Shown one piece after another: positions 1-15,285 of a stretch of 15,285 nt of DNA. The stretch is from positions 7,852,575-7,867,859 of the forward strand of contig NZ_CP031320.1 of the NCBI RefSeq assembly GCF_003355155.1, read 5' to 3'. Position 1 is the stretch's first letter. Every line of letters starts with the position of its first letter. Both the position numbers and the translations under genes were made by a program. The DNA comes from Streptomyces armeniacus. GTDB lineage: Bacteria; Actinomycetota; Actinomycetes; Streptomycetales; Streptomycetaceae. The notes beneath the pieces were generated by a model, which was not told where the DNA came from, ran no database searches, and saw only the letters and a list, made by a program, of their open reading frames with translations.

Positions 1-20
1 AGATGTGGTATAAGAGACAG
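1..20 (+). other. Residual Nextera/Tn5 mosaic-end adapter at the contig edge
   Basis: The first 20 bases read AGATGTGGTATAAGAGACAG. This is the 19-base Nextera mosaic end AGATGTGTATAAGAGACAG with one extra G after base 7. In tagmentation libraries this sequence sits directly 5' of the genomic insert, which matches its place at the very edge. It is library sequence, not organism DNA, so genomic sequence starts at about base 21. Confidence 0.95.
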
Positions 21-1129
21 TCAGTACGGACACGCTCGCGGGCAGCCGTTTCGTCGTCTCCCCGCTGGCCGAGGCCACCGCGTCGCTGAAGACCCTCGAA
101 CGGGAGACCGCCGCGCACCCCGGCGAACGCGCCTGGCTCGCCGCGCACCTCCCCGCGTACCGGGAACGGAAGGCCGCCGATCCCGTCACCGCCCAGATCG
201 TCGCGGCCGCGCTGGGGCGGAGTTGGAACGCGGACTACCTCACGCCCACGCCCCGCGGCGAGGGCGACCAGCCGTTCGAGGCGGAGGTCGCCCGGATACG
301 GGAGACGGCGCCCGAGGCCGCCCGTACGGACCTCACCGTCTCCCTGGGCGGGCCGCTCCCCGCCCGGCTGCACCGTTCGGACCTGCCGGAACGCACGGCG
401 GACCTCGTCGAGTGGGTGTGGGCGGAGACCGTGCTGCCGTACTGGCCGCGGCGCAGGCGCGTCATCGAGGCCGACATCGTGGCCCGTACGGCGCAGCTGG
501 GCCAGGGCGGCTGGGCGGCCACGCTGGACGACATGCGCCCGGGGATGCGCTGGCTCGGCGAAAGCCGCCTGCAGATCAACACGCACGACTACCCGCCGCA
601 CGAACTCGCCGGGGCGCAGATGCTGTTCGTGCCGGTCACGCCGCGGCAGGGGTGGGTCTCGTGGGAGGACCCGGGGGCGTACGGGTCTGAGCCCGCGCCT
701 GCGTACGGGTCTGAGCCCGCGCCTGTGTGCGAGGACGGGCGCGGCAGCGCGTACGGGGGCGGGCGCGGCCGCGCGTACGGGGGCGGGTGCGGCCGCGCGT
801 ACGGCCGTGGGCGCGCCGCGCCTCCCCCGCGCTACGCCGTCGTGTACCCGTGCGCGGGCGCACTGGCGGAGGTGGAGCGCGCGCCGGTCCCCGAGGCGCT
901 GGGCGCGCTGCTCGGGCCCGCGCGGGCGCGCGTACTGGCCCTCCTCGACACCCCGAAGAGCACGACCCAGCTGGTGGCGCTGACCGGGCAGCGGCTGGGT
1001 TCGGTGGGGCGGCACCTGCGCGTCCTGCTCGACGCCCGGCTCATACGGCGCCGGCGTGCGGGGCGTTCGGTGCTCTACTTCCGTACGGACGCGGGCGAGA
1101 CGCTGGTCGCCGCCCAGCGCGGGGGCTGA
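21..1129 (+). CDS. ArsR-family winged-helix transcriptional regulator, 5'-truncated
   Basis: The frame is open from the adapter edge (first whole codon at 23) to a TGA at 1127-1129, giving about 368 visible residues with no start codon in view. The N-terminal two thirds (from SRFVVSPLAEATASLKTLE) resembles the uncharacterised domain that precedes the helix-turn-helix in many actinobacterial ArsR-like regulators. Residues about 290-365 form the winged helix: a LLGPARARVLALLDTP helix, then STTQLVALTGQRLGSVGRHL as the recognition region, then a wing RRRRAGRSVLYF. The two parts are joined by a repeat-built linker (219-266) of six 8-residue units. No metal-binding CxC motif is visible in the HTH, so metal sensing is not supported. 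It converges with the minus-strand genes to its right. The family call is firm and the ligand is unknown. Confidence 0.85.
677..820 (+). repeat. 24-bp minisatellite, six units, inside the ArsR-like gene
   Basis: Units start at 677, 701, 725, 749, 773 and 797. The first two are identical (GCGTACGGGTCTGAGCCCGC plus GCCT). The third is degenerate. Units 4 and 5 share GCGTACGGGGGCGGG and differ by one base over that stretch and its tail; the sixth diverges after GCGTACGG. The period is a multiple of three and encodes 8-residue repeats AYGSEPAP, AYGSEPAP, VCEDGRGS, AYGGGRGR, AYGGGCGR, AYGRGRAA. Copy number can therefore change without a frameshift. Confidence 0.9.
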
Positions 1130-1249
1130 GCGGGCTGAGCCACCGCGGGCAGCGGCCACAACCCGGTTGAGGACGCCCTCGGCCACGACACACGTGCACA
1201 AGAGCCGGAGCACCGAGAGCAGCCAACGGCAGCGGGCGAGGCCGGAGGT

Positions 1250-1465
1250 CAGGCGCCATACGAGGCCCGTGTAGACGGCGACTTCCTCCGTGTTGCCGTT
1301 GTTGACCGCGTACTCGCTGAACGGCGTCGGCCCGTCCGGCCACGGCTCGTACAGGCCGGGCCACTGGTGGTCCACGGGCGTGTCGTCGCCCGGCAGGAAG
1401 TGGTGGACGTGCAAGCCGCCGGCCGTACGGGCGGCCTCGAAGCGGAGTGGCCGCGGGGCGGTCAC
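1250..1465 (-). CDS. Small hypothetical protein coupled to the GNAT gene; 3' end unresolved
   Basis: A GTG at 1465 overlaps the GNAT stop as GTGA (1465-1462), the usual sign of translational coupling. The first 72 codons have strong G/C third positions and protein-like content, including HVHHFLPGDDTPVDHQWPG and EYAVNNGNTEEVAVYTGLVW. After about codon 72 the third-position bias weakens (CGT, TTG, TGT, GTT, GCT, TCA). No stop occurs in this frame all the way to the left edge, because it is codon-aligned antisense to the ArsR gene, which lacks TCA, TTA and CTA. The real end is thus probably hidden by an indel: a one-base shift near 1256 would end the protein as ...TGLVYGA. I do not recognise the family. 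The end coordinate given is where coding character fades, not a stop codon. Confidence 0.5.
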
Positions 1466-2319
1466 GCCCTGCCTCCGCCGCCGCCCTCCGGGGCCCGTGC
1501 CTCCGGGGTCCGCGCGTCCGGAGCCGGTACCACGTACACGTACGGCGTCGTCGTGCTCAGCGCCACGAAGCCGAGCCGCCGCAGGATCGGACTGCTCTGG
1601 CTGGACGCGTCGACCTGGAGGTAGCGGTAGCCGCGCTCGGCGGCGATACGTGCGCGGTACGCGATCAGGGCCTTGTAGATGCCGCGCCCGCGCCACTCCG
1701 GCACCGTGCCGCCGCCCCACAGCCCGGCGAACTCCGTACCGGGCAGCAGATCCATCCGCGCCGCGCACACGGGCACGTCACCGGCCATCGCGACGACCGC
1801 CGCCAGCGTGTCGGGGGCGGCGGCGAGTTGGGCGAGCAGTTCCGTACGGAGCCGGAGGCGGCCGGCGCCGAAGGCGCGGTCGTGTACGGCCGCCATCAGC
1901 TCCACGCCCGCTTCGTCGGTCACGGGGCGCAGCCGTACGCCGTCGGGCAATCCGACGGCGGAGGGCAGCTCCCGTACGGGGGCGACGAGCAGCGTCTCCT
2001 CGGGCTCGGGCGTGAACCCGGCCGCCAGCAGGCGCTGTCCGAGGTCGGCGGGCGCGTCGTGGGAGTAGACCTTCCACTCGAACTCGGAGGGCGCGGCTCC
2101 CGTCCGGGCCGCCTCGGTGAAGTACCGCACTTGGGCGGCGATCGCGGCGTCGGCGGTGTCCGCGTCCAGCCCGGACCAGATGACGCCGGACCAGCCGCCG
2201 TCCGTACCGATCTGCCGGACGACTCCGTACGGGTCGTGCTCGACGCGTACGCCCGGCCCTTCCCGTACGCCCCGCCGCATCTGCGCGTCGAACATCGCCC
2301 GTACCGCGTCACTGTCCAT
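1462..2319 (-). CDS. GNAT-family N-acetyltransferase
   Basis: The encoded protein is 285 residues, likely transferring an acetyl group from acetyl-CoA to an unknown substrate in the cytoplasm. The C-terminal GNAT fold is at about 127-265: a beta strand VPVCAARMDLLPGTEFAGL, the acetyl-CoA pyrophosphate-binding segment VPEWRGRGIYKALI (206-219, RGRGIY fits the Q/RxxGxG/A loop), and the motif-B-like SSPILRRLGF (242-251). The first 120 residues (DGGWSGVIWSGLD...) are a separate N-terminal part. I chose ATG 2319 because MDSDAVRAMFDAQMRRG begins there and the upstream in-frame extension to 2469 reads like noncoding sequence; no good Shine-Dalgarno precedes either choice. A short ORF follows with a GTGA overlap. 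Residues 268-285 are a Pro/Gly-rich tail. The family is firm and the substrate unknown. Confidence 0.88.
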   Translation of the reverse strand: MDSDAVRAMFDAQMRRGVREGPGVRVEHDPYGVVRQIGTDGGWSGVIWSGLDADTADAAIAAQVRYFTEAARTGAAPSEFEWKVYSHDAPADLGQRLLAAGFTPEPEETLLVAPVRELPSAVGLPDGVRLRPVTDEAGVELMAAVHDRAFGAGRLRLRTELLAQLAAAPDTLAAVVAMAGDVPVCAARMDLLPGTEFAGLWGGGTVPEWRGRGIYKALIAYRARIAAERGYRYLQVDASSQSSPILRRLGFVALSTTTPYVYVVPAPDARTPEARAPEGGGGGRA

Positions 2320-2496
2320 GCGCCACACCCGAGCAGGGCGGATGACCGACGGCAACCGGATTTCCCGAGCCGCCCCCGCCCGAAGCGGCCCGCTCCCGGC
2401 CACGGGAGACGTGCCGGTCGCCACCGGCCCGCGGGGCCGGGCAGGGTACGCGGCGTACACACCGTGCACGCTGCGTGACCGTCCGCCCCGGTGTGA

Positions 2497-3708
<1,212 letters not shown>

Positions 3709-3741
3709 AGCGGCGGCGGCTGAGCGGCGGCGTACGACGCC

Positions 3742-3780
3742 GCGGGCGGCGGCCAGGACCGTAAAGGCACCGCCGCCCGC
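3742..3780. terminator. Strong GC hairpin between convergent asd and kinase genes
   Basis: A perfect 11-bp inverted repeat, GCGGGCGGCGG (3742-3752) and CCGCCGCCCGC (3770-3780), encloses a 17-base loop 34 bp after the asd stop. No U-tract follows, which is common for actinomycete terminators. It is placed to serve both converging genes. Confidence 0.65.
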
Positions 3781-3846
3781 CAGCCGTCCGCCGCGAGCCG
3801 CCGGCGATCGAGCGGATCGAGCGGTCGAACACGCCATGGACGTTCC

Positions 3847-4972
3847 TCACTCGCTCCAGTGCTCTGAGAGCGCCCGGGCGTTGAGTGTGTGGGGGTGGTC
3901 GGGCCCCAGCACGCGCGCCCGGTCCGCGGCGAGCTCGGCGAACAGCCGCGCCGCCTCGGTGTCCGCCCCCGTGTCCCCCGTGTACCAGGCTTGGTCGTAG
4001 CGGGCGTTGAGGGTGTCCGGGTGGTCGGGCCCCAGCACGCGCGCCCGGTCCGCGGCCAGCCCGGCGAACAGCCGCGCCGCCTCCGCGTGCTCCCCCGCCT
4101 CGCCCACCTCACGGGCATGGTCGCTGCGGCGGTCCAGGTCTCGTTCTGGTGCGCTGTGTTCGGTGTACGGCGCGGTGGCCGTCGTGGCGCGGGTCTGGAT
4201 GAGGGTCGTTACGGCGTGGGGCCACGGCGGGGTGCCGGGGAGGGCGGCAGGCGGGTCCCAGTGGGAGGTGAGCCGGGCGAGGAGTTGCGCCGGAGTGGGC
4301 CGGTCGGCTGGGTTCTTGGCCAGGCACGCGCTGACCAGGGCGCGTAGCGGATCCGTCAGCCGGTCCAGTCGCGGCTCGCCGGCGAGGACGCGCTGGAGGA
4401 CCACCAGTGGCGGGCCTTGACCGAAGGGCTCGCTGCCGGTGGCGGCGAACGCGAGCAGGGCGCCGAGGGAGAAGACGTCGCTGGGCGGCCCGACATGGCC
4501 GCCTTGGGCTTGTTCCGGGGGCATGAAGCCGGGCGTACCCACGGTCGTGCCGGTTCTGGTCAGCGCGGTGGCGTCCATCGCGCGGGCGATCCCGAAGTCG
4601 ATCACGCGCGGGCCGTCCGCGGCCAGCAACACGTTGGACGGCTTGAGATCGCGGTGGAGCAGACCCTCGGCGTGGATCGCCTGCAGCGCCTCGGCAAGCC
4701 CGGCCGCCAGCGGCCACACCGACCCGTCCGGCAGCGGGCCGGCCTCGGCTATGGCCTCGGCCAGGGATGGCCCGGGTACGTAGCTCGTCGCGATCCACGG
4801 CGGATCGTCGTCCGGTCCGGCTGCCACCACCGGCGCGGTGTACGCGCCACTGACAGCCTGCGCGGCGGCCACCTCCAGGCGGAAGCGTTGCCGGAGCTCA
4901 GCCTGCCTGGCCAAGTGGGGATGCACGACCTTCACCGCCACCGCCCGCCCACCCGGCGACCGGCCCAGAAAC
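3847..4972 (-). CDS. Ser/Thr protein kinase (Hanks type) with C-terminal TPR-like repeats, 5' end lost
   Basis: Residue numbers count from the ATG at 4989, which itself lies in adapter-like sequence. AVAVK carries the ATP-binding lysine (Lys20), Glu39 is a candidate helix-C glutamate, HRDLKPSN is the catalytic loop (112-119), DFG is at 131-133, and GTPGFMPPEQ is the activation/P+1 segment (151-160). Two near-identical units with AARLFAxLAADRARVLGPDH (about 304-380) are TPR-like and spaced 42 residues apart. The glycine-rich loop (GxGGMGxVY) expected just before FLGRSPGGRAVAVK is missing, because genomic sequence ends at 4972 where an adapter remnant begins. No transmembrane segment is seen in the visible part. 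The gene converges on asd. It probably phosphorylates Ser/Thr on unknown partners; the intact gene is likely functional and the truncation is a library artefact. Confidence 0.88.
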
Positions 4973-5136
4973 CTGTCCCTTCTCCACATCTGCAGCTGCC
5001 GCCCAACGCTCAGGTGTAGAGCCCGGTCGTGGTCACGGTAAGATACTGGATAGGTGTGATTGGCGCCAGTGTGAGATGCTGCGCGTTATGTATACCACAG
5101 CCTTGATGGGCAGCGTGAGATGTGGATAGGGGCCGG
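4973..5136. other. Back-to-back Illumina P5/Nextera read-1 adapters: chimeric junction
   Basis: Minus strand, read leftward: a P5-like stretch (5044-5014, ending TCTACAC), an 8-base index position (5013-5006), a read-1-like segment (5005-4992, 10 of 14 matches to TCGTCGGCAGCGTC), and AGATGTGGAGAAGGGACAG (4991-4973, 16 of 19 matches to the mosaic end). The three module lengths 8, 14 and 19 are exact. Plus strand, read rightward: a P5-like stretch (about 5054-5084), 19 bases in the index position, TGATGGGCAGCGTG (5104-5117, 10 of 14), and AGATGTGGATAGGGGCCGG (5118-5136, 14 of 19). The segment is also far less G+C-rich than its flanks. The best reading is two library molecules joined through their P5 ends and degraded by consensus errors. 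No gene should be called across it. Confidence 0.85.
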
Positions 5137-5566
5137 TCGGGCACCAGCCCGTACGTCCGTGGCCCACGGCCGTACGGGCGGGTGCCGTACGGGCGGGTGC
5201 CGTACGGGCGGGTGCGCGCGCCGCAGCGGGGGCCGGTGCCGTGCGGGCCGCCGCCGTACGGTCGAAGGTCACCGCCGCGGCCAGCAACGCCCGGTCGAAC
5301 GCGCCCCGTTGCGGCGTGTCCGAAGCAGGGCTGGGAAGGGCGCCGGGGGCGGAATCGGCGCGTACGGCCGCGGCAAGCCGTCGCGGTCCCTCCGCCACCC
5401 GGCGCGGCAGCGGCCGTCCCTCCCACAGAAGCGCGATGCTCGCTTCGGAGAGGGCGGCCGCCGCGTCGAGACGTTCCGCGAGCGGGCCCGGAACGGGGTA
5501 CGGAACGGCGTAACCGCGGCCGCCGGGGCAACCGGTTGCCCCGGGCGCCCCGGCGTGCCCGGACAC
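5137..5566 (-). CDS. Hypothetical Ala/Arg-rich protein, 3' end lost at the adapter junction
   Basis: The frame from GTG 5566 keeps strong G/C third positions through GPLAERLDAAAALSEASIAL (residues about 27-46) and GAFDRALLAAAVTFDRTAAA, then enters a tandem ARTAP repeat and reaches the adapter at 5136. The nominal continuation to 5033 is adapter-encoded and should be discarded. The start is uncertain: AGGAGA lies about 15 bases upstream of GTG 5566, which is rather far. I do not recognise the family. It is divergent from pyc, with 186 bp between starts. Confidence 0.45.
5169..5213 (-). repeat. 15-bp tandem repeat, three perfect units
   Basis: GCCGTACGGGCGGGT occurs at 5169-5183, 5184-5198 and 5199-5213. 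On the minus strand it encodes pentapeptide repeats (ARTAP register) in the hypothetical gene. Each unit carries the palindrome CCGTACGG. It lies about 30 bases from the adapter junction, so copy number could also be affected by the local assembly. Confidence 0.85.
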
Positions 5567-5752
5567 GGACTGTGACCGGACTCTCCTGGCGGACAGCCGC
5601 CGGGAGCGGCATGCTGTCGCTGGACAGTCAATCGATCAGGCTCGCGTGCCCGGACAGCGCCGTTCAGCAGGCAGGCAGCACACACAGCAGACATTCAGCC
5701 AGCAGTCAGTCAGCAGACAGCAGACGCGGCTCGTCAGGAGAAGTCAGCTCGT
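5567..5752 (+). promoter_or_regulatory. pyc upstream region with CAG-rich leader
   Basis: This gap separates the divergent hypothetical gene from pyc. Bases 5664-5725 are packed with CAG and CAGTCAG/CAGACAG steps and are poorer in G+C than the flanks, so the pyc leader is probably weakly structured. AGGAGAA at 5736-5742 is the pyc ribosome binding site. I cannot pick a convincing -35/-10 pair, and no riboswitch-like structure is evident. Confidence 0.4.
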
Positions 5753-8700
5753 ATGTTCTCGAAGGTCTTGGTCGCCAACCGCGGCGAAATCGCCATCCGC
5801 GCCTTCCGCGCCTCCTACGAACTGGGCGCGGGCACCGTGGCCGTGTTCCCGTACGAGGACCGCAACTCGCCCCACCGCCTCAAGGCCGACGAGGCGTACC
5901 AGATCGGCGCGCCCGGTCACCCCGTACGCGCCTACCTGTCCGTGGACGAGGTGATCGGCGCGGCACGGCGGGCCGGTGCCGACGCCGTGTACCCCGGCTA
6001 CGGCTTCCTCTCCGAGAACCCCGACCTCGCCGCCGCCTGCGCCGCCGAGGGCATCACCTTCGTCGGCCCGCCCACCCACGTGCTGGAGCTGACCGGCGAC
6101 AAGGCGCGCGCCATCGCCGCCGCCAGGGCGGCCGGGCTGCCGGTGCTGGACTCGAGCGCGCCGTCGCGCGACGTCGAGGAGCTGCTGGCGGCGGCGGAGT
6201 CGATGCAGTTCCCGGTGTTCGTGAAGGCCGTCGCGGGCGGCGGCGGGCGCGGCATGCGCCGGGTCGCGGAGCGCGAGCAGCTGCGGGAGGCGATCGAGGC
6301 GGCGGCGCGGGAGGCGGAGTCCGCGTTCGGCGACGCGACCGTCTTCCTGGAGCAGGCGGTGGTCGATCCGCGCCACATCGAGGTGCAGATCCTGGCCGAC
6401 ACGCACGGCGACGTGATCCACCTGTACGAGCGGGACTGCAGCGTGCAGCGCCGCCACCAGAAGGTCGTCGAGCTGGCCCCGGCCCCCAACCTGGACCCCG
6501 AGCTGCGCGCACGGATCTGCGCGGACGCCGTGGCCTTCGCCCGCGAGATCGGCTACACCTGCGCGGGCACCGTCGAGTTCCTCGTCGACGCCCGCGGCAA
6601 CCACGTCTTCATCGAGATGAACCCGCGCATCCAGGTCGAGCACACCGTGACCGAGGAGGTCACGGACGTCGACCTGGTGCAGTCGCAGCTGCGCATCGCC
6701 GCCGGCGAGTCGCTGGCCGACCTCGGGCTGCGGCAGGACCGGATCGTGCTGCGCGGCTCCGCGCTCCAGTGCCGCATCACCACCGAGGACCCCGCCAACG
6801 GCTTCCGGCCCGACACCGGCCGCATCACCGCGTACCGCTCGCCGGGCGGCGCGGGCGTACGGCTCGACGGCGGTACGAACCTGGGCGCCGAGGTGGCCGC
6901 GCACTTCGACTCGATGCTGGTCAAACTCACCTGCCGGGGCCGGGACTTCGGCACCGCGGTGGCGCGGGCGCGGCGTGCCGTCACCGAGTTCCGGATCAGG
7001 GGCGTGGCGACGAACATCCCGTTCCTCCAGGCGCTGCTGGACGAGCCGGACTTCCGCTCCGGGCAGGTCACGACGTCGTTCATCGAGCAGCACCCGGGGC
7101 TGCTGACGCGGCGCGGCTCGGCGGACCGCGGCACGCGCATCCTCGAGTACCTCGCGGACATCACCGTCAACAAGCCGCACGGCGAACGCCCCGCCACCGT
7201 TCCCCCGTACGAGAAGCTGCCGCGCAACGGGCTGGACGCGCCCGTGCCGGACGGTTCACGGCAGCGGCTGCTGGCGCTCGGCCCCGAGGGGTTCGCCGCG
7301 GATCTGCGCGAGCGGAGCGCGCTCGGCGTCACGGACACCACGTTCCGTGACGCGCACCAGTCGCTGCTGGCGACCCGCGTCCGTACGAAGGACCTGCTGG
7401 AGGTGGCGGGCCATGTCGCCCGCAGCACACCCGAGTTGCTGTCGGTGGAGGCGTGGGGCGGCGCGACGTACGACGTGGCGCTCCGTTTCCTGTACGAGGA
7501 CCCGTGGGAGCGGCTGGCGGCGCTGCGCGAGGCGATCCCCAACGTCTGCCTCCAGATGCTGCTGCGCGGCCGCAACACCGTCGGCTACACGCCGTATCCG
7601 GAACGGGTGACGCGGGCCTTCGTACAGGAGGCCGCGGACACCGGGATCGACATCTTCCGGATCTTCGACGCGCTGAACAACGTCGACCAGATGCGCCCCG
7701 CCATCGACGCCGTACGGGAGACCGGCACGGCCGTCGCCGAGGTCGCCCTGAGCTACACCGGCGACCTCTCCGACCCCCGCGAGGACCTCTACACCCTCGA
7801 CTACTACCTGCGGCTCGCCGAGCGGATGGTCGAGGCCGGGGCGCACGTCCTGGCCGTCAAGGACATGGCCGGGCTGCTGCGCGCACCCGCCGCCCGTACC
7901 CTCGTCGGCGCCCTGCGCTCGAACTTCGGCCTGCCCGTGCACATCCACACCCACGACACGCCCGGCGGCCAGCTCGCGTCGTACCTCGCGGCGTGGGAGG
8001 CGGGCGCCGACGCCGTCGACGGCGCCTCCGCCGCGCTGGCGGGCACCACCAGCCAGCCGGCGCTGTCCGCGATCGTCGCCGCCGCCGCGCACACCGAGCG
8101 CGACACGGGCCTCGACCTGGACGCGGTGTGCGACCTGGAGCCGTACTGGGAGGCCGTACGCCGCGTCTACGCCCCCTTCGAGTCGGGGCTGCCCGCGCCG
8201 ACCGGCCGCGTGTACGAGCACGAGATCCCCGGCGGCCAGCTCTCCAACCTCCGTCAGCAGGCCATCGCGCTCGGCCTCGGCGACCGCTTCGAGGACATCG
8301 AGGCGGCGTACGCGGGCGCCGACCGGCTGCTGGGCCGACTGGTCAAGGTCACCCCGAGCTCGAAGGTCGTCGGCGACCTGGCACTGGCGCTGGTCGGCGC
8401 CGGGGTGTCCACCGAGGAGTTCGCGGCCGACCCGGCGCGCTTCGACATCCCCGGCTCGGTGATCGGCTTCCTGCGCGGCGAGTTGGGCGACCCGCCCGGC
8501 GGCTGGCCGGAACCGCTGCGCACCCGCGCGCTCACCGGGCGGGCGGCCGCGCCGGAGGAGCAGGCGCTGACCGAGGAGGAGGGCAAGCGGCTCGAAGGCA
8601 CGTCCGGGGAGCGCCAGAGCACCCTGAACGGACTCCTCTTCCCCGGCCCCGCCCGGGACTTCACCGACCACCGCGACCGCTACGGCGACACCACCCCGCT

Positions 8701-9136
8701 CTCCAGCGACCTCTTCTTCTACGGCCTCCACCACGGCGAGGAGCACAAGGTCACGCTGGCACCCGGCGTCCAGCTCCTCATCGGCCTGGAGGCGATCTCC
8801 GAGGCCGACGAGCGCGGCATGCGGACCGTGATGTGCATCCTCAACGGGCAGCTGCGGCCCGTTCAGGTACGGGACCGGGCGGTGGCCAGCGAGGTCCCCG
8901 TCGCGGAGAAGGCCGACAAGAACGACCCCGGGCACGTGCCCGCGCCGTTCGCCGGCGTGGTCACGCTGGCGGTACGCGAGGGCGCGGAGGTCGAGGCGGG
9001 CGACACCATCGGCACCATCGAGGCGATGAAGATGGAGGCGGCGATCACCGCACCGACGGGCGGCACGGTGGGGCGTATCGCGATCTCGCCGGTGGCGCAG
9101 GTGGAGGGCGGGGACCTGCTGATCGTGCTGGCGTGA
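5753..9136 (+). CDS. pyc: Pyruvate carboxylase, single-chain
   Basis: The protein is 1127 residues, the expected size. It carboxylates pyruvate to oxaloacetate using ATP, bicarbonate and biotin, replenishing the TCA cycle and feeding aspartate-family synthesis. Domain order: biotin carboxylase (1-460) with VANRGEIAIR (7-16), the ATP-grasp glycine loop AGGGGRGM (161-168) and EMNPRIQVEHTVTE (288-301); carboxyltransferase (about 520-800) with TDTTFRDAHQSLLATR (527-542), the lysine normally carbamylated in AVKDMAG (Lys703), and metal-ligand histidines in HIHTHDT (His732, His734); the allosteric/tetramerisation region; and the biotinyl domain with EAMKMEA (biotinylated Lys1093). ATG 5753 follows AGGAGAA at 5736-5742. 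The frame is intact with no anomalies. The nearest downstream gene is convergent, so pyc looks monocistronic. Confidence 0.98.
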   Translation: MFSKVLVANRGEIAIRAFRASYELGAGTVAVFPYEDRNSPHRLKADEAYQIGAPGHPVRAYLSVDEVIGAARRAGADAVYPGYGFLSENPDLAAACAAEGITFVGPPTHVLELTGDKARAIAAARAAGLPVLDSSAPSRDVEELLAAAESMQFPVFVKAVAGGGGRGMRRVAEREQLREAIEAAAREAESAFGDATVFLEQAVVDPRHIEVQILADTHGDVIHLYERDCSVQRRHQKVVELAPAPNLDPELRARICADAVAFAREIGYTCAGTVEFLVDARGNHVFIEMNPRIQVEHTVTEEVTDVDLVQSQLRIAAGESLADLGLRQDRIVLRGSALQCRITTEDPANGFRPDTGRITAYRSPGGAGVRLDGGTNLGAEVAAHFDSMLVKLTCRGRDFGTAVARARRAVTEFRIRGVATNIPFLQALLDEPDFRSGQVTTSFIEQHPGLLTRRGSADRGTRILEYLADITVNKPHGERPATVPPYEKLPRNGLDAPVPDGSRQRLLALGPEGFAADLRERSALGVTDTTFRDAHQSLLATRVRTKDLLEVAGHVARSTPELLSVEAWGGATYDVALRFLYEDPWERLAALREAIPNVCLQMLLRGRNTVGYTPYPERVTRAFVQEAADTGIDIFRIFDALNNVDQMRPAIDAVRETGTAVAEVALSYTGDLSDPREDLYTLDYYLRLAERMVEAGAHVLAVKDMAGLLRAPAARTLVGALRSNFGLPVHIHTHDTPGGQLASYLAAWEAGADAVDGASAALAGTTSQPALSAIVAAAAHTERDTGLDLDAVCDLEPYWEAVRRVYAPFESGLPAPTGRVYEHEIPGGQLSNLRQQAIALGLGDRFEDIEAAYAGADRLLGRLVKVTPSSKVVGDLALALVGAGVSTEEFAADPARFDIPGSVIGFLRGELGDPPGGWPEPLRTRALTGRAAAPEEQALTEEEGKRLEGTSGERQSTLNGLLFPGPARDFTDHRDRYGDTTPLSSDLFFYGLHHGEEHKVTLAPGVQLLIGLEAISEADERGMRTVMCILNGQLRPVQVRDRAVASEVPVAEKADKNDPGHVPAPFAGVVTLAVREGAEVEAGDTIGTIEAMKMEAAITAPTGGTVGRIAISPVAQVEGGDLLIVLA

Positions 9137-9210
9137 GCGTGCTGGTGATCGTCGCCTGTGCGTGTGCGTGTGCCTGTCGCGGGCCTGTGCCTGTGCGTGC
9201 TCTTGCGGGC

Positions 9211-9240
9211 CCGTGCGTGCCTGTGCGTGCCTGTGCGTGC
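9211..9240 (+). repeat. 10-bp tandem repeat downstream of pyc
   Basis: CCGTGCGTGC followed by two copies of CTGTGCGTGC fills 9211-9240. Looser TGTGCGTG/TGTGCCTG variants extend back to about 9155. This low-complexity stretch lies between the pyc stop and the end of the convergent gene, and no gene is supported in it. Confidence 0.8.
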
Positions 9241-9276
9241 CTGACGGCCGGTTCAGGGCCTGACGGCCGGTTCAGG
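9240..9276. terminator. Duplicated 18-bp hairpin element between convergent genes
   Basis: CCTGACGGCCGGTTCAGG occurs exactly twice (9240-9257 and 9259-9276), one base apart. Each copy can fold with the 5-bp stem CCTGA/TCAGG. The second copy covers the stop codon (9272-9274) of the minus-strand gene. Tail-to-tail placement suggests a bidirectional termination role, but the stem is short. Confidence 0.45.
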
Positions 9277-10102
9277 CGACGATCGCCAGCAGAGACGTCG
9301 CCGCCTCGGTCAGCCCGGCGTCACCGCTGAGCTCGGAGCGGCGGCGCGCCTCCTCGGGCGTGATCCCGCGGGTGGCCAGCCGCCACAGCACGTCCTGGTC
9401 CATGGCGACACGCGCCGTGTCCCTGGCGGCGGCCCGGTCCGCCGCGGCCCCCGTGGCGAGGGCCCAGCGGCCCACGCTCCGTACGGCCGTCCACGTGCCG
9501 CCCGCCGGGCCGGTGACGTCGAACCGTACGGAGGTGCCGTCCGGGCCGCCCCGGTCGCGCAGCGCGTACGGCAGCCCGCGCAGGAACGCGTCCACGACCG
9601 GCCCGAGCAGGTCCGGGCCGTCCGCGCCCGGCCGCCCGACCGCGTCACGGATCTGCTGCTGGTGCACCCAGTGCTCGGTGTACTCGCGGGCGATGTCCAG
9701 CCACGCGGGCACGTCCTCGCCGGGCGGGGCCGCCCACGAGACGCTGAGCGCGGCGGGCGCGTCGAGGCGCTGGGCCGCCCACAGGGCGTCGAGCTGCGGA
9801 CCGAGGTGACCGAGCAGCTCGGTCAGCACGCGAGGGCTGAGCTGGCGGGCGGCGGTCACGAACTCGCCGTTGGTCCGGTTCACGTACGAGGGCAGCGTCT
9901 CGTCGTTGGTGAACACCGCGCCGGGGTGGCCGTCGCGGCTGCCGGAGAGGCGGCGCAGATAGTCGTTGAGCAGATGCGCGACGACGTCGTGCACGTCCCA
10001 GCCGGGGCAGACGGTGGGGCGCGACCAGTCCGCGGGGTCGAGCGCGCCGAGCAGCGCGAGGAGCGCGGCGTTGGGGGTGCGAGTGCGGGTAGCCGAGCGC
10101 GT
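9272..10102 (-). CDS. Maleylpyruvate isomerase/DinB-fold family protein (mycothiol-dependent type), start abnormal
   Basis: Counted from 10102 the protein has about 276 residues. PNAALLALLGALDPADW and CPGWDVHDVVAHLL (32-45) are the typical N-terminal helices of this fold. The metal triad of the family maps to His43 (VAHLL), Glu143 and His147 (TEHWVHQQQIRDAVGRP). The family includes mycothiol-dependent isomerases and transferases; the substrate is unknown. The start is odd: the frame is open upstream to a TGA near 10149 but has no ATG, GTG or TTG before GTG 9994, which would delete the first helices. AGGAGG (10114-10109) lies 6 bases before ACG 10102, so an ACG start or a misread ATG fits best. 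A second strong site, AAGGAGG with GTG 10151, is in another frame. It lies downstream of, and is probably cotranscribed with, the sigma gene. Confidence 0.8.
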   Translation of the reverse strand, partial: TRSATRTRTPNAALLALLGALDPADWSRPTVCPGWDVHDVVAHLLNDYLRRLSGSRDGHPGAVFTNDETLPSYVNRTNGEFVTAARQLSPRVLTELLGHLGPQLDALWAAQRLDAPAALSVSWAAPPGEDVPAWLDIAREYTEHWVHQQQIRDAVGRPGADGPDLLGPVVDAFLRGLPYALRDRGGPDGTSVRFDVTGPAGGTWTAVRSVGRWALATGAAADRAAARDTARVAMDQDVLWRLATRGITPEEARRRSELSGDAGLTEAATSLLAIVA

Positions 10103-10188
10103 CTCGGTCCTCCTGGCGGGGATCGAGGCGAAAGCGGATCGGATCGTTCACTGAGCCCTCCTTGGTTGCTCTCCGTGCGCATCTCTGC

Positions 10189-11778
10189 CTACGGAGGGGT
10201 CCTTCGACTCGACCCCAAGTAACCTCCGACGGGGAGCGTGTGGCGAGGTGGCTCACAATTGGTTTTTTTTTTTTGCACCGGGGGCTTGCTCGGCTCCGGC
10301 TCCGGCTCGGGCGGGGGCTTCGGCTTGGGCTCCGGTTCAGGTTCCGGTTTGGGCTTGGGCTTGGGTTCCGGTTCGGCCGGCTCAGGAGGCGCGGGGGCGG
10401 GCTTGTCCGGCTTGTTGCCCGGCGGCGGGGCGCCCGGCGCCGGCTTCTCGGGCGGCTGGGACGCGGCCGGCGGCTTGGCCTCCGGCTTCTCCGGCTTGGC
10501 GTCGTTGCCCGTCATCGCCATCGCGGCGGCGACGGCCGCGGCCGTCACCGCACCGACGGCGATGCCGACCTTCGCGGGCGTGCCCAGACCCTCCGAGGCC
10601 GCGCCGCCCGCGGCACCGCCGGAACCCGCCGCGCCCGTGCCGGCGCTGCCGCTCGCGGCCGCCGCGGCGCCCGCACCGGCGGCCGCCGTCGCGCTGCTGC
10701 CGCCGCCGAGCAGCGCCCCGAACGCCTTGGCGCCGCCCGCTGCCCCGAACCAGCCGATGAAGGCGACCGGCACGAGGATACGGATCTGGCTGTTGAGGTC
10801 CTTGACCTCCAGCGCGGCCGTGCGGCACTTGGCGCACTCCTCCAGGTGCTTGCGCAGCCCGCGCTCCGCCCGCATCCGGAGCCCGCCGCGCGCGTACGCA
10901 CCGAGCCGGTCGGCGTAGCGCGCGCAGTCGCCACCTGCCGTGAGGCTGTGACTCACGTGCGCCTGGAGGTACGCCTGCTTGAGCTTCTCGCGCGCCCGGT
11001 GCGCGAGGACGGCGGTTGCGTTGTCCGAGAGGCCCAGCAGCGGCGCGACGTCCTTGGGCGACTCGTCCTCGACGGTCGTGTGCCACAGCACCGTCTGGTA
11101 CTTCTCCGGCAGGCTGCGGAACGCCTGCACCGCCAGCGAGCGGTCCGCCTCCCGCATCGCGCGCACGTCCGCGCCCAGGTCCTGCGTGTCCTCGTCGGTG
11201 GCGGTGGAGCTGTGCGCCGCCGACTGCGCGAACACCGCGAAGTCCTCGACGAGTTGCTCACGCTTGGCCGTCTTGGTCCAGGCGGCGGCGACGCGCCGTA
11301 CGGACGTCAGCAGGTACGCGCGCACGGCCGTGTCGGGGCCGGAGCCGCCCCGCACCGCCTGCAGAGTGCGGGCGAAGACCTCGTTGGTGAGGTCGTCGGC
11401 GGTGTGCGAGTCCCGGCAGCACGTACGGGCGTACCGCCGGACGGCTTCCGAGTGGCGGCGGTACAGCTCGTCGTACGCCTCGGTGTCACCGCCGCGCATG
11501 CGCGCCACGAGGGCCGAGTCGGGCAGCTCCCCGCCGGGCAGCTTCCCGCCGGCGGCCCGCTGCTGCGGAACGGACGGCCCGCCGCCCGGCTGCGTGCTGT
11601 CGCCGCCGCCCGACGGCTCGGTGTCGTCACCGCCGCCCGGGTCCGCCGGCGTTACCGGTGCGGCCTCGTCGCTCGGTCCGCCCTGCCCGGGCACTGTGGC
11701 GGAAAGGGGCAGGGTCGGCTCGTCGTCCGCTCCGCCGCCGTCCGTACTCTGTGGGTCTCCACGCCCGTCAACGCCCAT
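10189..11778 (-). CDS. ECF-like sigma-70 factor fused to a zinc finger, membrane segment and Pro-rich tail
   Basis: The protein has 529 residues. Residues 1-85 are a disordered Gly/Asp/Pro region; about 88-170 is sigma region 2 (DSALVARMRGGDTEAYDELY, DDLTNEVFARTLQAV); about 210-272 is region 4 (RSLPEKYQTVLWHTTVEDES, then LLGLSDNATAVLAHRAREKL). A zinc-finger anti-sigma-like motif follows: Cys285, His311, Cys315 and Cys318 in HLEECAKC. A hydrophobic run (about 402-424, KVGIAVGAVTAAAVAAAM) is the likely membrane helix, then a PEPKPK-rich tail. This resembles ECF groups carrying their own C-terminal anti-sigma-like and membrane domains, such as Streptomyces ECF52 (SCO4117 type); that assignment is from memory. 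ATG 11778 has GGGGGG 9-14 bases upstream. The last codons are doubtful because of a 12-A run: with 10 or 13 A the protein would end at a TGA at 10255-10253. Confidence 0.88.
   Translation of the reverse strand: MGVDGRGDPQSTDGGGADDEPTLPLSATVPGQGGPSDEAAPVTPADPGGGDDTEPSGGGDSTQPGGGPSVPQQRAAGGKLPGGELPDSALVARMRGGDTEAYDELYRRHSEAVRRYARTCCRDSHTADDLTNEVFARTLQAVRGGSGPDTAVRAYLLTSVRRVAAAWTKTAKREQLVEDFAVFAQSAAHSSTATDEDTQDLGADVRAMREADRSLAVQAFRSLPEKYQTVLWHTTVEDESPKDVAPLLGLSDNATAVLAHRAREKLKQAYLQAHVSHSLTAGGDCARYADRLGAYARGGLRMRAERGLRKHLEECAKCRTAALEVKDLNSQIRILVPVAFIGWFGAAGGAKAFGALLGGGSSATAAAGAGAAAAASGSAGTGAAGSGGAAGGAASEGLGTPAKVGIAVGAVTAAAVAAAMAMTGNDAKPEKPEAKPPAASQPPEKPAPGAPPPGNKPDKPAPAPPEPAEPEPKPKPKPEPEPEPKPKPPPEPEPEPSKPPVQKKKTNCEPPRHTLPVGGYLGSSRRTPP
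10263..10274 (-). repeat. 12-base A run (T12 on the + strand) near the 3' end of the sigma gene
   Basis: A run of 12 T on the given strand encodes the lysine cluster in PPVQKKKTNC. Such a run is very unlikely in DNA of this composition. Length decides the C-terminus: 12 A gives the 529-residue form; 10 or 13 A ends in ...NQL with a TGA at 10255-10253; 11 A opens a third frame that runs past the downstream gene's start. It may be a sequencing error or a slippage site. Confidence 0.85.
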
Positions 11779-11867
11779 AGCGGGCACCCCCCGAAGATGC
11801 TGTTGCCACCGAACTCTGGGTAAGGGTGCCACAGGGAGACGCCCGGGGACCGGCAATGCAAAGCATC

Positions 11868-11921
11868 CACCCGTCCCGGGTGAATTGCTCCCGGTCGCCC
11901 GCGCACTCACCCGTACGGGTG
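11868..11921. promoter_or_regulatory. Pair of CACCCG/CGGGTG palindromes upstream of the sigma gene
   Basis: CACCCGTCCCGGGTG (11868-11882) is a 6-bp inverted repeat with a 3-base spacer. CACCCGTACGGGTG (11908-11921) is a perfect 14-bp palindrome with the same half-sites. Their centres are about 39-40 bp apart, close to four helical turns. They lie 90-143 bp upstream of the sigma start, in the 312-bp gap 11779-12090. The rest of that gap holds a 9-bp tandem repeat near the tetR stop and no convincing gene. An operator role is inference. Confidence 0.4.
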
Positions 11922-12031
11922 CTTCGGGCGTTCCGCCGCCGTACGCCGGCCGCCCGGCGTCAACGCCCGTACGTCAACTGCCCGCGCGCAACAGCCGACC
12001 GCCGAGACCACCGAGACAGCTGAAACCACCG

Positions 12032-12067
12032 ACCGCCGAGGCCGCCGAGGCCGCCGAGGCCGCCGAG
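12032..12067. repeat. 9-bp tandem repeat, four units, downstream of tetR
   Basis: ACCGCCGAG is followed by three copies of GCCGCCGAG at 12041-12067. The block lies 24 bp beyond the tetR stop on the minus strand. It does not form an obvious hairpin and looks like simple-sequence expansion. Confidence 0.8.
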
Positions 12068-12090
12068 ACCGCGGACCGCGCCGGACGGCC

Positions 12091-12963
12091 TCAGGTGCTC
12101 GGGCGTGACCGCAGGCCCTCCAGCAGGATGTCCAGCAGCCGGTTCGATGCCGCGGCCTGTTGCGTCGCGTCGGGAAGCATCGGCGCCGCCGTCGCTATCA
12201 CCAGCAGCACGTCGCCGACCGTCACGTCCGGGCGGAGCTCGCCCGCGGACCGTGCCCGATCGACCAACTGCCCCACCACCTCGAGCAGTTCGGCCGCGCC
12301 CGAGTCGTCGTCCGCGAGATCGAAGTCGCCCGGCCGCTGCTGCGCGTCCCGGCCGTTCGCGATCTGCGCGCCCGCGCCCAGGCCGTCGTCGTCCAGCGCC
12401 CCGTGCTCCACCTCGGGCGTGATGCGCGGCTCCATCAGCCGCAGCCCGTTCTGCCCGTCCACGCCGCTCTGGCGCTGTATGGGCACGCGGGTGCCGCCGT
12501 CGAAGCGGTCGCCCACGTCCACCGAGCCGGTGTCCACGGCCGAGACCGCGCCCGTGCCCGGCCCGCCGGCCCCGCCGGTGCCCGTGTCCTCGTCGGCCGT
12601 CCCCGTGCGCAGTATCCGCGGCGGCAGCAGCCGCCCCGCGCCCGAAGCGACGGACGTGCGCAGGAACCTGGACAGCGCGGCCCAGGGCTGCTCTTCGTGG
12701 CCGAGCGCGGCCTGTGCCTGCTCGGTGAGCCGGGCCGTCTCCTCTTCCGCGATGCGCCGGACGAGCACGTCCTTGCTCGGGAACCTGCGGTAGACCGTCC
12801 CGACACCGACCCGTGCCCGCCGCGCCACGTCCTCCATCGGCGCGCCGTACCCCAGCTCGCCGAAGACCTCACGTGCCGCGCGTAGAACGTGCTCGAGATT
12901 GCGCTGGGCGTCGACCCGCAGCGGCGTCGAGCGCGAAGAGTCCTGAATCCCCTGAATGTGCAT
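12091..12963 (-). CDS. TetR-family transcriptional regulator with a long acidic/Gly linker
   Basis: The protein is 290 residues, well above the usual 190-220. The DNA-binding helix-turn-helix is at about 23-70: NLEHVLRAAREVFGELGYG, then APMEDVARRARVGVGTVYRR FPSKDVLV. The C-terminal ligand-binding/dimerisation helices resume at about 222 (SGAAELLEVVGQLVDRARSA). Between them, residues about 119-221 are a low-complexity Gly/Asp/Thr-rich stretch atypical of the fold. ATG 12963 is chosen because GGGGGA lies 6 bases upstream and the in-frame extension to 13230 looks noncoding. It is divergent from the NADH dehydrogenase-like gene, which it may regulate; this is inferred from position only. The ligand is unknown. 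Confidence 0.88.
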   Translation of the reverse strand: MHIQGIQDSSRSTPLRVDAQRNLEHVLRAAREVFGELGYGAPMEDVARRARVGVGTVYRRFPSKDVLVRRIAEEETARLTEQAQAALGHEEQPWAALSRFLRTSVASGAGRLLPPRILRTGTADEDTGTGGAGGPGTGAVSAVDTGSVDVGDRFDGGTRVPIQRQSGVDGQNGLRLMEPRITPEVEHGALDDDGLGAGAQIANGRDAQQRPGDFDLADDDSGAAELLEVVGQLVDRARSAGELRPDVTVGDVLLVIATAAPMLPDATQQAAASNRLLDILLEGLRSRPST

Positions 12964-12985
12964 TGTTGTTCCCCCGGTAATGAAT

Positions 12986-13001
12986 GTCTCCCCCCGGAGA
13001 C
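12986..13001. promoter_or_regulatory. Inverted repeat in the tetR leader
   Basis: GTCTCC-CCCC-GGAGAC is a perfect 6-bp inverted repeat 23 bp upstream of the tetR start. It could be an autoregulatory operator or an RNA hairpin next to the ribosome binding site. The repeat itself is clear and the function is inference. Confidence 0.4.
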
Positions 13002-13052
13002 CCCCGCCCTTTTTGTGATCGGTGGCGCGGTCAGCCCAAAAACGCCCCCGTC

Positions 13053-13082
13053 GGGTTACGAACATAGTTGAGGCCACGTCAA
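13053..13082 (-). promoter_or_regulatory. Candidate promoter for tetR
   Basis: On the minus strand TTGACG (13082-13077) and TAACCC (13058-13053) are separated by 18 bp. The -35 is close to TTGACA; the -10 is a partial match only. This would give a leader of about 80 bases containing the inverted repeat at 12986-13001. The 337-bp divergent gap 12964-13300 also holds a possible -10 for the opposite gene and a 20-codon ORF (13121-13183) that I do not call. Confidence 0.4.
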
Positions 13083-13246
13083 GAGAGAAGGGGGGCTCTT
13101 CTGCGCATCCTCGGCCCCGATTGGAGTATGTGCTGGCGCAGGCGCTGAAGGGCCCGTCCGGCACCCCGCTCCACCCCGTCTGACCTGCGCCGATTCCTCC
13201 ATGCCCAGGAACCGGGGCGAAACGGACCATGTGCCTCCGCTAGTCA

Positions 13247-13252
13247 TACAAT
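13247..13252 (+). promoter_or_regulatory. Possible -10 element of the NADH dehydrogenase-like gene
   Basis: TACAAT is an unusually A/T-rich hexamer in this genome and lies 49 bp before the chosen start of the flavoprotein gene. No matching TTGAC-type -35 is seen 17-18 bp upstream, so this is a weak call. Confidence 0.25.
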
Positions 13253-13300
13253 TCGCTGGACCTGTGGACAAACACCGGGCCTGGGGTGCGTCATGGACAG

Positions 13301-14668
13301 GTGACGAAGGAACCCGTGCGCATTCTCGTGGTCGGCGGCGGCTATGTTGGCATGTACACCGCTCTCAGCCTCCAGCGATCGCTGAAACAGCAGCTCATAC
13401 GTGGTGAGACGCAGATCGTCGTGGTCGACCCCGAGCCGTACATGACGTACCAGCCCTTCCTGCCCGAGGCCGCCGCAGGATCCATCTCCCCACGTCACGT
13501 CGTCGTGCCGCTCCGGCGCACGCTGTCCAGATGCCAGGTCGTCATCGGCGAGGTCAAGGCCATCGACCACGCCGAACGGACCGCCACCATCGAGACCCTG
13601 GCGACCGCCGAAGAGGGCACCGACGCCATCGAGATGCCGTACGACGAACTCGTCCTGGCGCCCGGCTCCATCTCCCGCACCCTCCCCGTCCCCGGTCTCG
13701 CCGAGCACGGCATCGGCTTCAAGACCGTCGAGGAGGCCATCGGGCTGCGCAACCACGTGCTCGAACAGCTCGACATCGCCTCCTCGACCCGCAACCCGGA
13801 GGTACGCGACGCCGCGCTCACCTTCGTCTTCGTCGGCGGCGGCTACGCGGGCGTCGAAGCGCTCGCCGAACTCGAGGACATGGCCCGCTACGCCTGCCGC
13901 TACTACCACAACCTCCAGCCCGACGACGTGCGGTTCCTGCTGGTGGAGGCGAGCGACCGGATCCTCCCCGAGGTCGGCGCGGAGATGGGCGCGTACGCCC
14001 TGCGCGAACTGCGCGGCCGCAACATCGACGTACGTCTCGAGACCCGGCTCGACACCTGTGAGAAGCGCGTCGCCGTCCTCAGCGACGGCTCCCGGCACCC
14101 CACCCGCACCCTGGTGTGGACCGCGGGCGTCAAGCCGCACCCGATCCTGGCCGCCACGGGCCTGCCGCTCAACGAGCGCGGCCGGCTGCGGTGTACGGCG
14201 CAACTGCGGGTCGACGGCACCGAGCACGCCTGGTCCGCCGGCGACGCCGCCGCCGTGCCCGACCTGGCCGCGCGCGCGAAGGGCGACGACGGCGCCGAGT
14301 GCGCGCCGAACGCGCAGCACGCCGTACGGCAGGCGCGCCGGCTCGCGGAGAACATCGCGGCCACACTCAAGGGCGAGGAACCCGCCGACTACCGGCACTC
14401 CTACGCGGGTTCCGTCGCCTCCCTCGGTCTGCACAAGGGCGTCGCCCACGTGTACGGCCGCAAGCTCAAGGGCTATCCGGCCTGGTTCATGCACCGCGCG
14501 TACCACCTGAGCCGCGTGCCCACGTTCAACCGCAAGGCACGGGTGCTGGCCGAGTGGACGCTGGCGGGGCTCTTCAAACGGGAGATCGTTTCGCTGGGGT
14601 CGCTCGAACATCCGCGCGCGGAGTTCGAGCTCGCCGCCGGCACCGGCAGACATCCCGAAGCGAGCTGA
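13301..14668 (+). CDS. Type II NADH dehydrogenase-like FAD/NAD(P)H oxidoreductase
   Basis: This protein probably moves electrons from NADH through FAD to a quinone at the membrane surface without pumping protons. It has 455 residues from GTG 13301. Motifs (numbers from the GTG at 13286; subtract 5) are the FAD-binding VRILVVGGGYVGMYTA (11-26), YQPFLPEAAAG (55-65), the NADH-binding LTFVFVGGGYAGVEA (179-192), LVWTAGVKPHP (276-286), the second FAD-contact motif WSAGDAAAVPD (316-326), and a basic, partly hydrophobic C-terminal region RVLAEWTLAGLFKREI compatible with membrane association. Three starts are possible: 13286, 13301 and 13316. VTKEPVRILVVGGG from 13301 fits the short lead-in usual for the family, while 13316 has AAGGA 4 bases ahead. 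It is divergent from tetR. Related flavoproteins with other acceptors cannot be excluded. Confidence 0.87.
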   Translation: MTKEPVRILVVGGGYVGMYTALSLQRSLKQQLIRGETQIVVVDPEPYMTYQPFLPEAAAGSISPRHVVVPLRRTLSRCQVVIGEVKAIDHAERTATIETLATAEEGTDAIEMPYDELVLAPGSISRTLPVPGLAEHGIGFKTVEEAIGLRNHVLEQLDIASSTRNPEVRDAALTFVFVGGGYAGVEALAELEDMARYACRYYHNLQPDDVRFLLVEASDRILPEVGAEMGAYALRELRGRNIDVRLETRLDTCEKRVAVLSDGSRHPTRTLVWTAGVKPHPILAATGLPLNERGRLRCTAQLRVDGTEHAWSAGDAAAVPDLAARAKGDDGAECAPNAQHAVRQARRLAENIAATLKGEEPADYRHSYAGSVASLGLHKGVAHVYGRKLKGYPAWFMHRAYHLSRVPTFNRKARVLAEWTLAGLFKREIVSLGSLEHPRAEFELAAGTGRHPEAS

Positions 14669-14761
14669 CGGAACTCCCGGCCGCGCAGCGGCGTCTGAGG
14701 GGTGTCAGTGCCGTGGGCCACACTGGACATGTGACCATGGGTGGGGCCGTATCTGCGAAGA

Positions 14762-14881
14762 GTGATAGTCGTGATCAGCAGCACTGGCATCTCAGACACG
14801 ACCAACGCGAACGACGCGGACAACGCGATCGGCGCGAACGACGCGACGCACAGGACAAACGCGAGGAATCGGACGACGTGA
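14762..14881 (+). CDS. Possible short upstream ORF coupled to the Lys/Ala-repeat gene
   Basis: From GTG 14762 (or GTG 14771 in the same frame) an ORF of 39 (or 36) residues, with segment TTNANDADNAIGANDATHR, ends at TGA 14879-14881. That stop overlaps the next GTG (14878-14880) as GTGA. Third positions are G/C-rich, but the sequence is repetitive (two GCGAACGACGCG copies), so coding is uncertain. If translated it would act as a coupled leader peptide. Confidence 0.25.
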   Translation: MIVVISSTGISDTTNANDADNAIGANDATHRTNARNRTT

Positions 14882-15285
14882 ACTTCACGCGCTGGAGCGC
14901 CCGACTGCCCGGCACACAGCGGCGCAGCGCCGCCGCCCAGGCAGCGACCAAGGCGACGAAGGCGGCGAAGGCGGCGAAGACGACGAAGGCCGCGAAGTCG
15001 GCCAAGGTGGCGAAGGGAGCCAAGACAGCGAAGCCGGCGAAGGCGGCCAAGACCCGGCAGCCGTCGGGGACGTACGGCCCCGCGCCCGACCCGGAGCCCG
15101 ACGGCGCCGACACCGGACCGGCCACCGGCACCGTCCCCGCCGCCCGCGGCACGGGCTCCGACGGGTGCGCCCAAGAGGCGCCCGCCGGCGCCCTCCTGGA
15201 GCCCGGCCCCGCGGAGACCGAGGCACACCCGGCGAGCACCGGGGCCGACGAGGCCGGCGCGGCCGTACGGGACGACCCGCCTCTT
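14878..15285 (+). CDS. Protein with Lys/Ala-repeat N-terminus, 3'-truncated, function unknown
   Basis: From GTG 14878 the frame is open for 136 codons to the window edge. GAGGA at 14863-14867 lies 10 bases upstream. The start VNFTRWSARLPGTQRRSAAA is followed by about 35 residues of AAK/TK/AKxAK repeats (about 23-57), similar in character to histone H1-like tails. Then comes a disordered Pro/Gly/Asp/Glu-rich region (about 60-136). No folded domain is visible yet. From memory, similar NFTRWSARLPGTQRR starts occur in large Streptomyces sensor/phosphatase proteins with PAS-type domains, but nothing in the visible part proves this. It lies 209 bp after the NADH dehydrogenase-like gene on the same strand. 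Confidence 0.65.
   Translation, partial: MNFTRWSARLPGTQRRSAAAQAATKATKAAKAAKTTKAAKSAKVAKGAKTAKPAKAAKTRQPSGTYGPAPDPEPDGADTGPATGTVPAARGTGSDGCAQEAPAGALLEPGPAETEAHPASTGADEAGAAVRDDPPL

Follow-up and report, generated by a model that had tools for sequence, protein, structure and literature searches.

Facing copies of Illumina Nextera adapter point to a false join within a single-contig bacterial genome

The window analysed here, a stretch of 15,285 bases, covers positions 7,852,575–7,867,859 of the single 8,083,249-base contig of its genome (8.08 Mb; G000). It is composed of two pieces of genomic sequence separated by 164 bases (4973–5136). The left piece carries a semialdehyde-dehydrogenase gene (2647–3708, from Pfam) and most of a protein-kinase ORF, and the right piece carries pyc. 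The intervening 164 bases are leftover Illumina Nextera library adapter with read errors and are not bacterial. They hold two facing, error-laden copies, each in the order mosaic end, Nextera read 1, i5 index, and P5. The read-1, read-2, and mosaic-end sequences used for identification are those that we take to be Nextera's. The features are as follows, in window coordinates.

1..20, minus strand: mosaic end with one extra base (AGATGTG-G-TATAAGAGACAG, read directly), adapter bordering the left piece at its far end
21..4972, no strand: genomic piece left of the join, with mosaic-end sequence on both sides
3847..4989, minus strand: protein-kinase ORF, matching Pfam Pkinase from profile position 24
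4973..4991, plus strand: mosaic end of the left copy, 16/19 bases
4992..5005, plus strand: Nextera read-1 part (reverse complement) of the left copy, 26/33 bases together with the mosaic end
5006..5013, plus strand: i5 index octamer of the left copy, 6/8 to S508
5014..5040, plus strand: P5 part of the left copy, with a 3-base insertion (gapped local alignment score of the whole copy, 35)
5041..5087, no strand: stretch between the adapter copies, outside both local alignments, probably low-quality read tail
5088..5103, minus strand: P5 end (5088–5095) and i5 index (5096–5103, 6/8 to S508) of the right copy
5104..5136, minus strand: read 1 (5104–5117) and mosaic end (5118–5136, 14/19) of the right copy, together 24/33 bases
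5137..15285, no strand: genomic piece right of the join, with repeats, pyc (5753–9136, from Pfam domains and a full-length match in the relative G107), and further genes

A weaker match to read 1 and the mosaic end (22/33) is located at 1176–1208, surrounded by sequence of coding-like composition, and may be due to chance or to another join.

The left copy retains the lengths of the mosaic end, read 1, and index (19, 14, and 8 bases) without gaps, its insertion falling in P5, while the right copy can be aligned to the adapter only from 5128 down to 5088 and has a heavily corrupted P5 part. Gapped local alignment against the complete adapter (70 bases) scores 35 for the left copy and 23 for the right one, compared to a top score of 18 among 2000 random 88-base segments taken from elsewhere in the window. 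The G+C content in 80-base windows is 0.52–0.59 inside the stretch vs. 0.69–0.85 on either side. A previous sequence-only reading had described a P5-to-P5 pair of degraded adapter copies, both arranged as P5, index, read 1, and mosaic end, with exact index, read-1, and mosaic-end lengths (8, 14, and 19) on the minus-strand side and with a sharp drop in G+C content; it had considered chance implausible and had proposed a gapped alignment to the Nextera adapter. The alignment places both copies far above the controls and, together with the fit to S508, bears out the pair; the order and lengths hold to the extent just described, and the drop in G+C content is real.

The degraded state of the window's copies might suggest chance resemblance in GC-rich DNA. 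This explanation is refuted by three controls, and its probability is negligible. None of the 2000 random segments reaches the score of either copy. The last 400 kb of the contig contain 39 positions that match the 33-mer of read 1 and mosaic end at 22 or more bases, vs. none in five first-order Markov simulations. Finally, 49 of the 61 genomes in the first sample have no adapter match at E ≤ 0.01.

The index octamers, ACGCTCAG in the left copy and AGGCTGTG in the right one, each agree with reverse-complemented S508 at 6/8 positions, the next best of the nine compared i5 indices reaching 3/8. Throughout G000, S508 is the single best of these nine indices for 45 of 57 P5 sides, the window's own two included (7 ties, 5 sides with other indices), and among the eight i7 indices compared, N705 alone ranks first for 11 of 16 P7 sides (3 ties, 2 others). 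The majority i5 octamer over the sides, AGGCTTAG, is the exact reverse complement of S508, and the majority i7 octamer, GGACCCCT, agrees with that of N705 at 7/8 positions. By contrast, S508 comes out as sole best index at 0/8 sides in G012, another single-contig genome with adapter places; hence, the index signal comes from the library and is not imposed by the query. One library index pair (S508 with N705) thus dominates throughout the genome, as expected from adapter read-through. The order, orientation, lengths, and index are all like those of the Illumina Nextera dual-index adapters (P5-S508-read 1-mosaic end and P7-N705-read 2-mosaic end). PMC7589761 prints the S508 and N705 octamers with the P5 and P7 arms, on oligonucleotides with a different inner part.

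A genome-wide search with the P5-S508-read 1-mosaic end query yielded at least 41 matches, and the P7-N705-read 2-mosaic end query at least 17, the weakest P7 matches having E-values up to 0.01; both counts are lower bounds, as 40 of 83 (P5) and 40 of 47 (P7) candidates were scored. After addition of the window's site and one further site, these matches merge to about 55 places, again a lower bound. The window's two copies are among the weak ones (26 and 24 of 33 bases), and its site is absent from the 41 P5 matches listed from the 40 scored candidates. The places are distributed unevenly along the contig, with one in the first megabase, 18 between 7 and 8 Mb, and 10 in the last 83 kb, and the spacing between them shrinks along it (Spearman −0.78 over 55 gaps). 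The size order of the pieces is a trend and not a strict rule, e.g., the window's join is preceded by a spacing of 5 kb and followed by one of 26 kb. Since the places are crowded only toward the end of the contig, a layout of pieces by decreasing size explains them better than fragmentation, which would load the ends of both arms.

The copies decay along the adapter. Ungapped identity, taken over the 57 P5 sides, amounts to 0.84 for the mosaic end, 0.85 for read 1, 0.68 for the index, and 0.56 for P5, the latter falling to 0.30 with a 3-base shift. A accounts for 48% of the 12 bases after P5, vs. 13% of the 40 bases of genomic sequence preceding the mosaic end. The 16 P7 sides give 0.86 for the mosaic end, 0.89 for read 2, 0.64 for the index, and 0.47 for P7 (0.27 when shifted), followed by 34% A. 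Because the sides were picked by the mosaic end with read 1 (24/33) or with read 2 (25/34), the figures for these parts are inflated and the fall in identity is partly a selection effect; the figures for the index and P5/P7 are free of this inflation and, being ungapped, are lowered by insertions. Compared without gaps over the 57 P5 sides, the copies depart from the Nextera adapters at about 15% of positions in the mosaic end and read 1 and at 44% of those in P5, as in low-quality read tails. The errors mostly keep the adapter length and are followed by A-rich sequence. Illumina reads that run past the end of a short fragment are likewise error-laden and then turn into A-rich calls. At 285 of 418 errors the base equals a neighbouring template base (247.7 expected), and this substitution pattern fits Illumina phasing only weakly.

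The tails are visible directly at other places of the genome. At L054, two P5 copies have an A-rich tail meeting a T-rich tail between them, which is what is expected from two read tails set end to end, and at L015 a P5 copy and a P7 copy are separated by an A-rich stretch. The middle of the window's stretch, unlike these two places, has no clear A-rich or T-rich tails, as it is too corrupted for them to be seen.

The occurrence of both P5-to-P5 (L054) and P5-to-P7 (L015) pairs is also what one might see if, ahead of sequencing, two library molecules had been physically fused at P5 so that they were read as a single molecule. Such a chimera is very unlikely, given that the errors in the left copy are mainly substitutions with conserved lengths, that the A-rich tails are on the read-out strand, and that the spacing shrinks along the contig. 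Moreover, when 23 matching bases are required, the last 400 kb contain 42 adapter sides, which pair up into only six two-sided places, a count that may have missed weaker partners.

On its left side, the stretch cuts into a gene. The bases of the kinase ORF from 4989 down to 4973, the ATG included, are adapter, and the genomic part comprises 3847–4972; the apparent start codon (4987–4989) comes from the mosaic end. This genomic part lacks the ATP-binding loop. The homologous kinase loci L142–L145, from three genomes, align up to 4972 and no further in 4/4 cases, and all four homologues run on upstream with the ATP-binding loop LRGRLGAGGMGEV, in place of which the window has MWRRDR, encoded by adapter except that the last codon is partly genomic. 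Hence, the left break is exact: genomic homology ends at 4972, and the mosaic end begins at 4973. The missing rest of the kinase was not found at the other joins in the loci fetched from G000, which cover part of the genome. The earlier claim that outward-facing mosaic ends abut genomic sequence agrees with this result on the left; the right mosaic end terminates at 5136, the presumed genomic border on that side. Of the further claim that both flanking genes are cut exactly at the borders, the part concerning the left gene stands, since all four loci stop at 4972, and the part concerning the right is not supported, no cut gene being seen there.

Inverted arms of 42 bases with 71% complementarity, together with dispersed copies, resemble a natural mobile element, namely, a small non-autonomous transposon with Tn5-like inverted ends, and the mosaic end does derive from Tn5 ends. 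The match, in contrast, continues beyond the arms through read 1, the library index, and P5 or P7, all of which are synthetic, and this content refutes a natural inverted-repeat element. The flanks of the window's join, CGGCCCAGAAAC on the left and TCGGGCACCAGC on the right, contain no target-site duplication, and no 9-base duplication was seen by eye in the 12 flanking bases at this join or at five other two-sided places. In addition, copies are situated at contig ends in other draft genomes. We therefore regard a mobile element as extremely improbable. The stretch 4973–5136 has no biological function and is an artefact.

To the right of the join, 5137–5752 does not look convincingly coding when judged by base composition at the codon positions. 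Upstream of pyc, at 5161–5260, there is a 31-base family of four copies with spacings of 15, 15, and 39 bases. Four Rfam matches were listed, all far below the gathering scores, and an RNA element was rejected. Among 120 genus members searched, the nearest pyc is that of G107 (89% protein identity, full-length match), and this genome matches the window only from position 5732.

The semialdehyde-dehydrogenase gene of the left piece was matched in 10/10 relatives searched, the best match again being in G107 (82% DNA identity). The sequence-only reading had allowed for the two halves to come from different genomes. This suggestion is not upheld, given that G107 is both the nearest relative for pyc and the best of ten for semialdehyde dehydrogenase, and that the contamination estimate for the genome is 0.31. 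Full-length pyc and the semialdehyde-dehydrogenase gene are both present in eight of the ten relatives, and in none of the eight are they seen side by side. They are on one contig in G107, G138, G113, and G013, separated by 48 kb, 2.5 Mb, 4.5 Mb, and 5.1 Mb, respectively, and on separate contigs in G003, G021, G100, and G127. In G107, moreover, their relative orientation is reversed compared to the window. This non-adjacency is weak evidence of a false join because relatives do not keep the genes of the left piece together either; at loci L147–L149, from three relatives, no homology to the window is listed beyond about 2635–3708.

These comparisons bear on the possibility that the two pieces are true neighbours, correctly scaffolded, and that the gap between them was filled with untrimmed reads, so that the 164 bases would be an artefact and the join itself would not be chimeric. 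In favour of this possibility, adapter extends into the gap from either flank, the pattern that gap filling from the two edges would produce. Against it, the two genes are not seen side by side in 8/8 relatives having both, with the caveat on left-piece gene order given above, and we consider correct scaffolding with gap filling unlikely.

The stretch 4973–5136 is almost certainly an adapter-marked assembly artefact, and its best reading is a false join at which two contig tails face each other. The chimeric junction proposed from the sequence alone is supported to this extent, by the adapter identity and by about 55 like places genome-wide, the rest of the genome contributing more support than the window itself. 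The most likely course of events starts with short Nextera fragments that would have been sequenced past their ends, from genomic sequence through the mosaic end, read 1, the S508 index, and P5, and then off the fragment end, where the instrument would call mostly A with poor quality. If such reads were left untrimmed, contigs would end in adapter tails carrying substitution errors. A subsequent software step would then have strung the contigs or scaffolds into one pseudo-chromosome, apparently by decreasing size. A literature search, conducted without the name of the organism, yielded no paper traceable to this genome.

Adapter remnants were also observed in other assemblies. Of the 61 genomes in the first sample, 12 gave an adapter match at E ≤ 0.01, and 20 of 22 loci from genomes other than G000 and G012 stop at a contig end near the match. 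In the genus sample, matches at E ≤ 1e-5 were found in 35 of 392 genomes (two candidates scored per genome), and 20 of the 59 matches listed fall in the first 132 bases of a contig. Three of these 35 genomes consist of a single contig: G000, G012, and G364. The second of them is a genus member with 15 adapter matches counted (L023, L034, L049), and the third is a 5.3-Mb genome with two weaker matches, at 79 and 88% identity. In PMC10898089, a table note lists adaptors as one of the common contaminants. Adapter contamination of public assemblies resembles the present case in that adapter was left in the assembly. Unlike in usual adapter contamination, the copies reported here occur within a genome of one contig, seemingly mark joins, and are in many cases degraded. 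Degraded adapters of this kind may escape strict screening.

As it stands, the record is misleading: the kinase seems to lack the ATP-binding loop at its start and to have pyc as its neighbour. The finding is of use as a warning about this assembly. The single-contig genome is likely a size-ordered pseudo-molecule with at least about 55 adapter-marked false joins, in which case gene neighbourhoods, truncated genes, and "chromosome ends" would be unreliable, here and probably in G012 as well.
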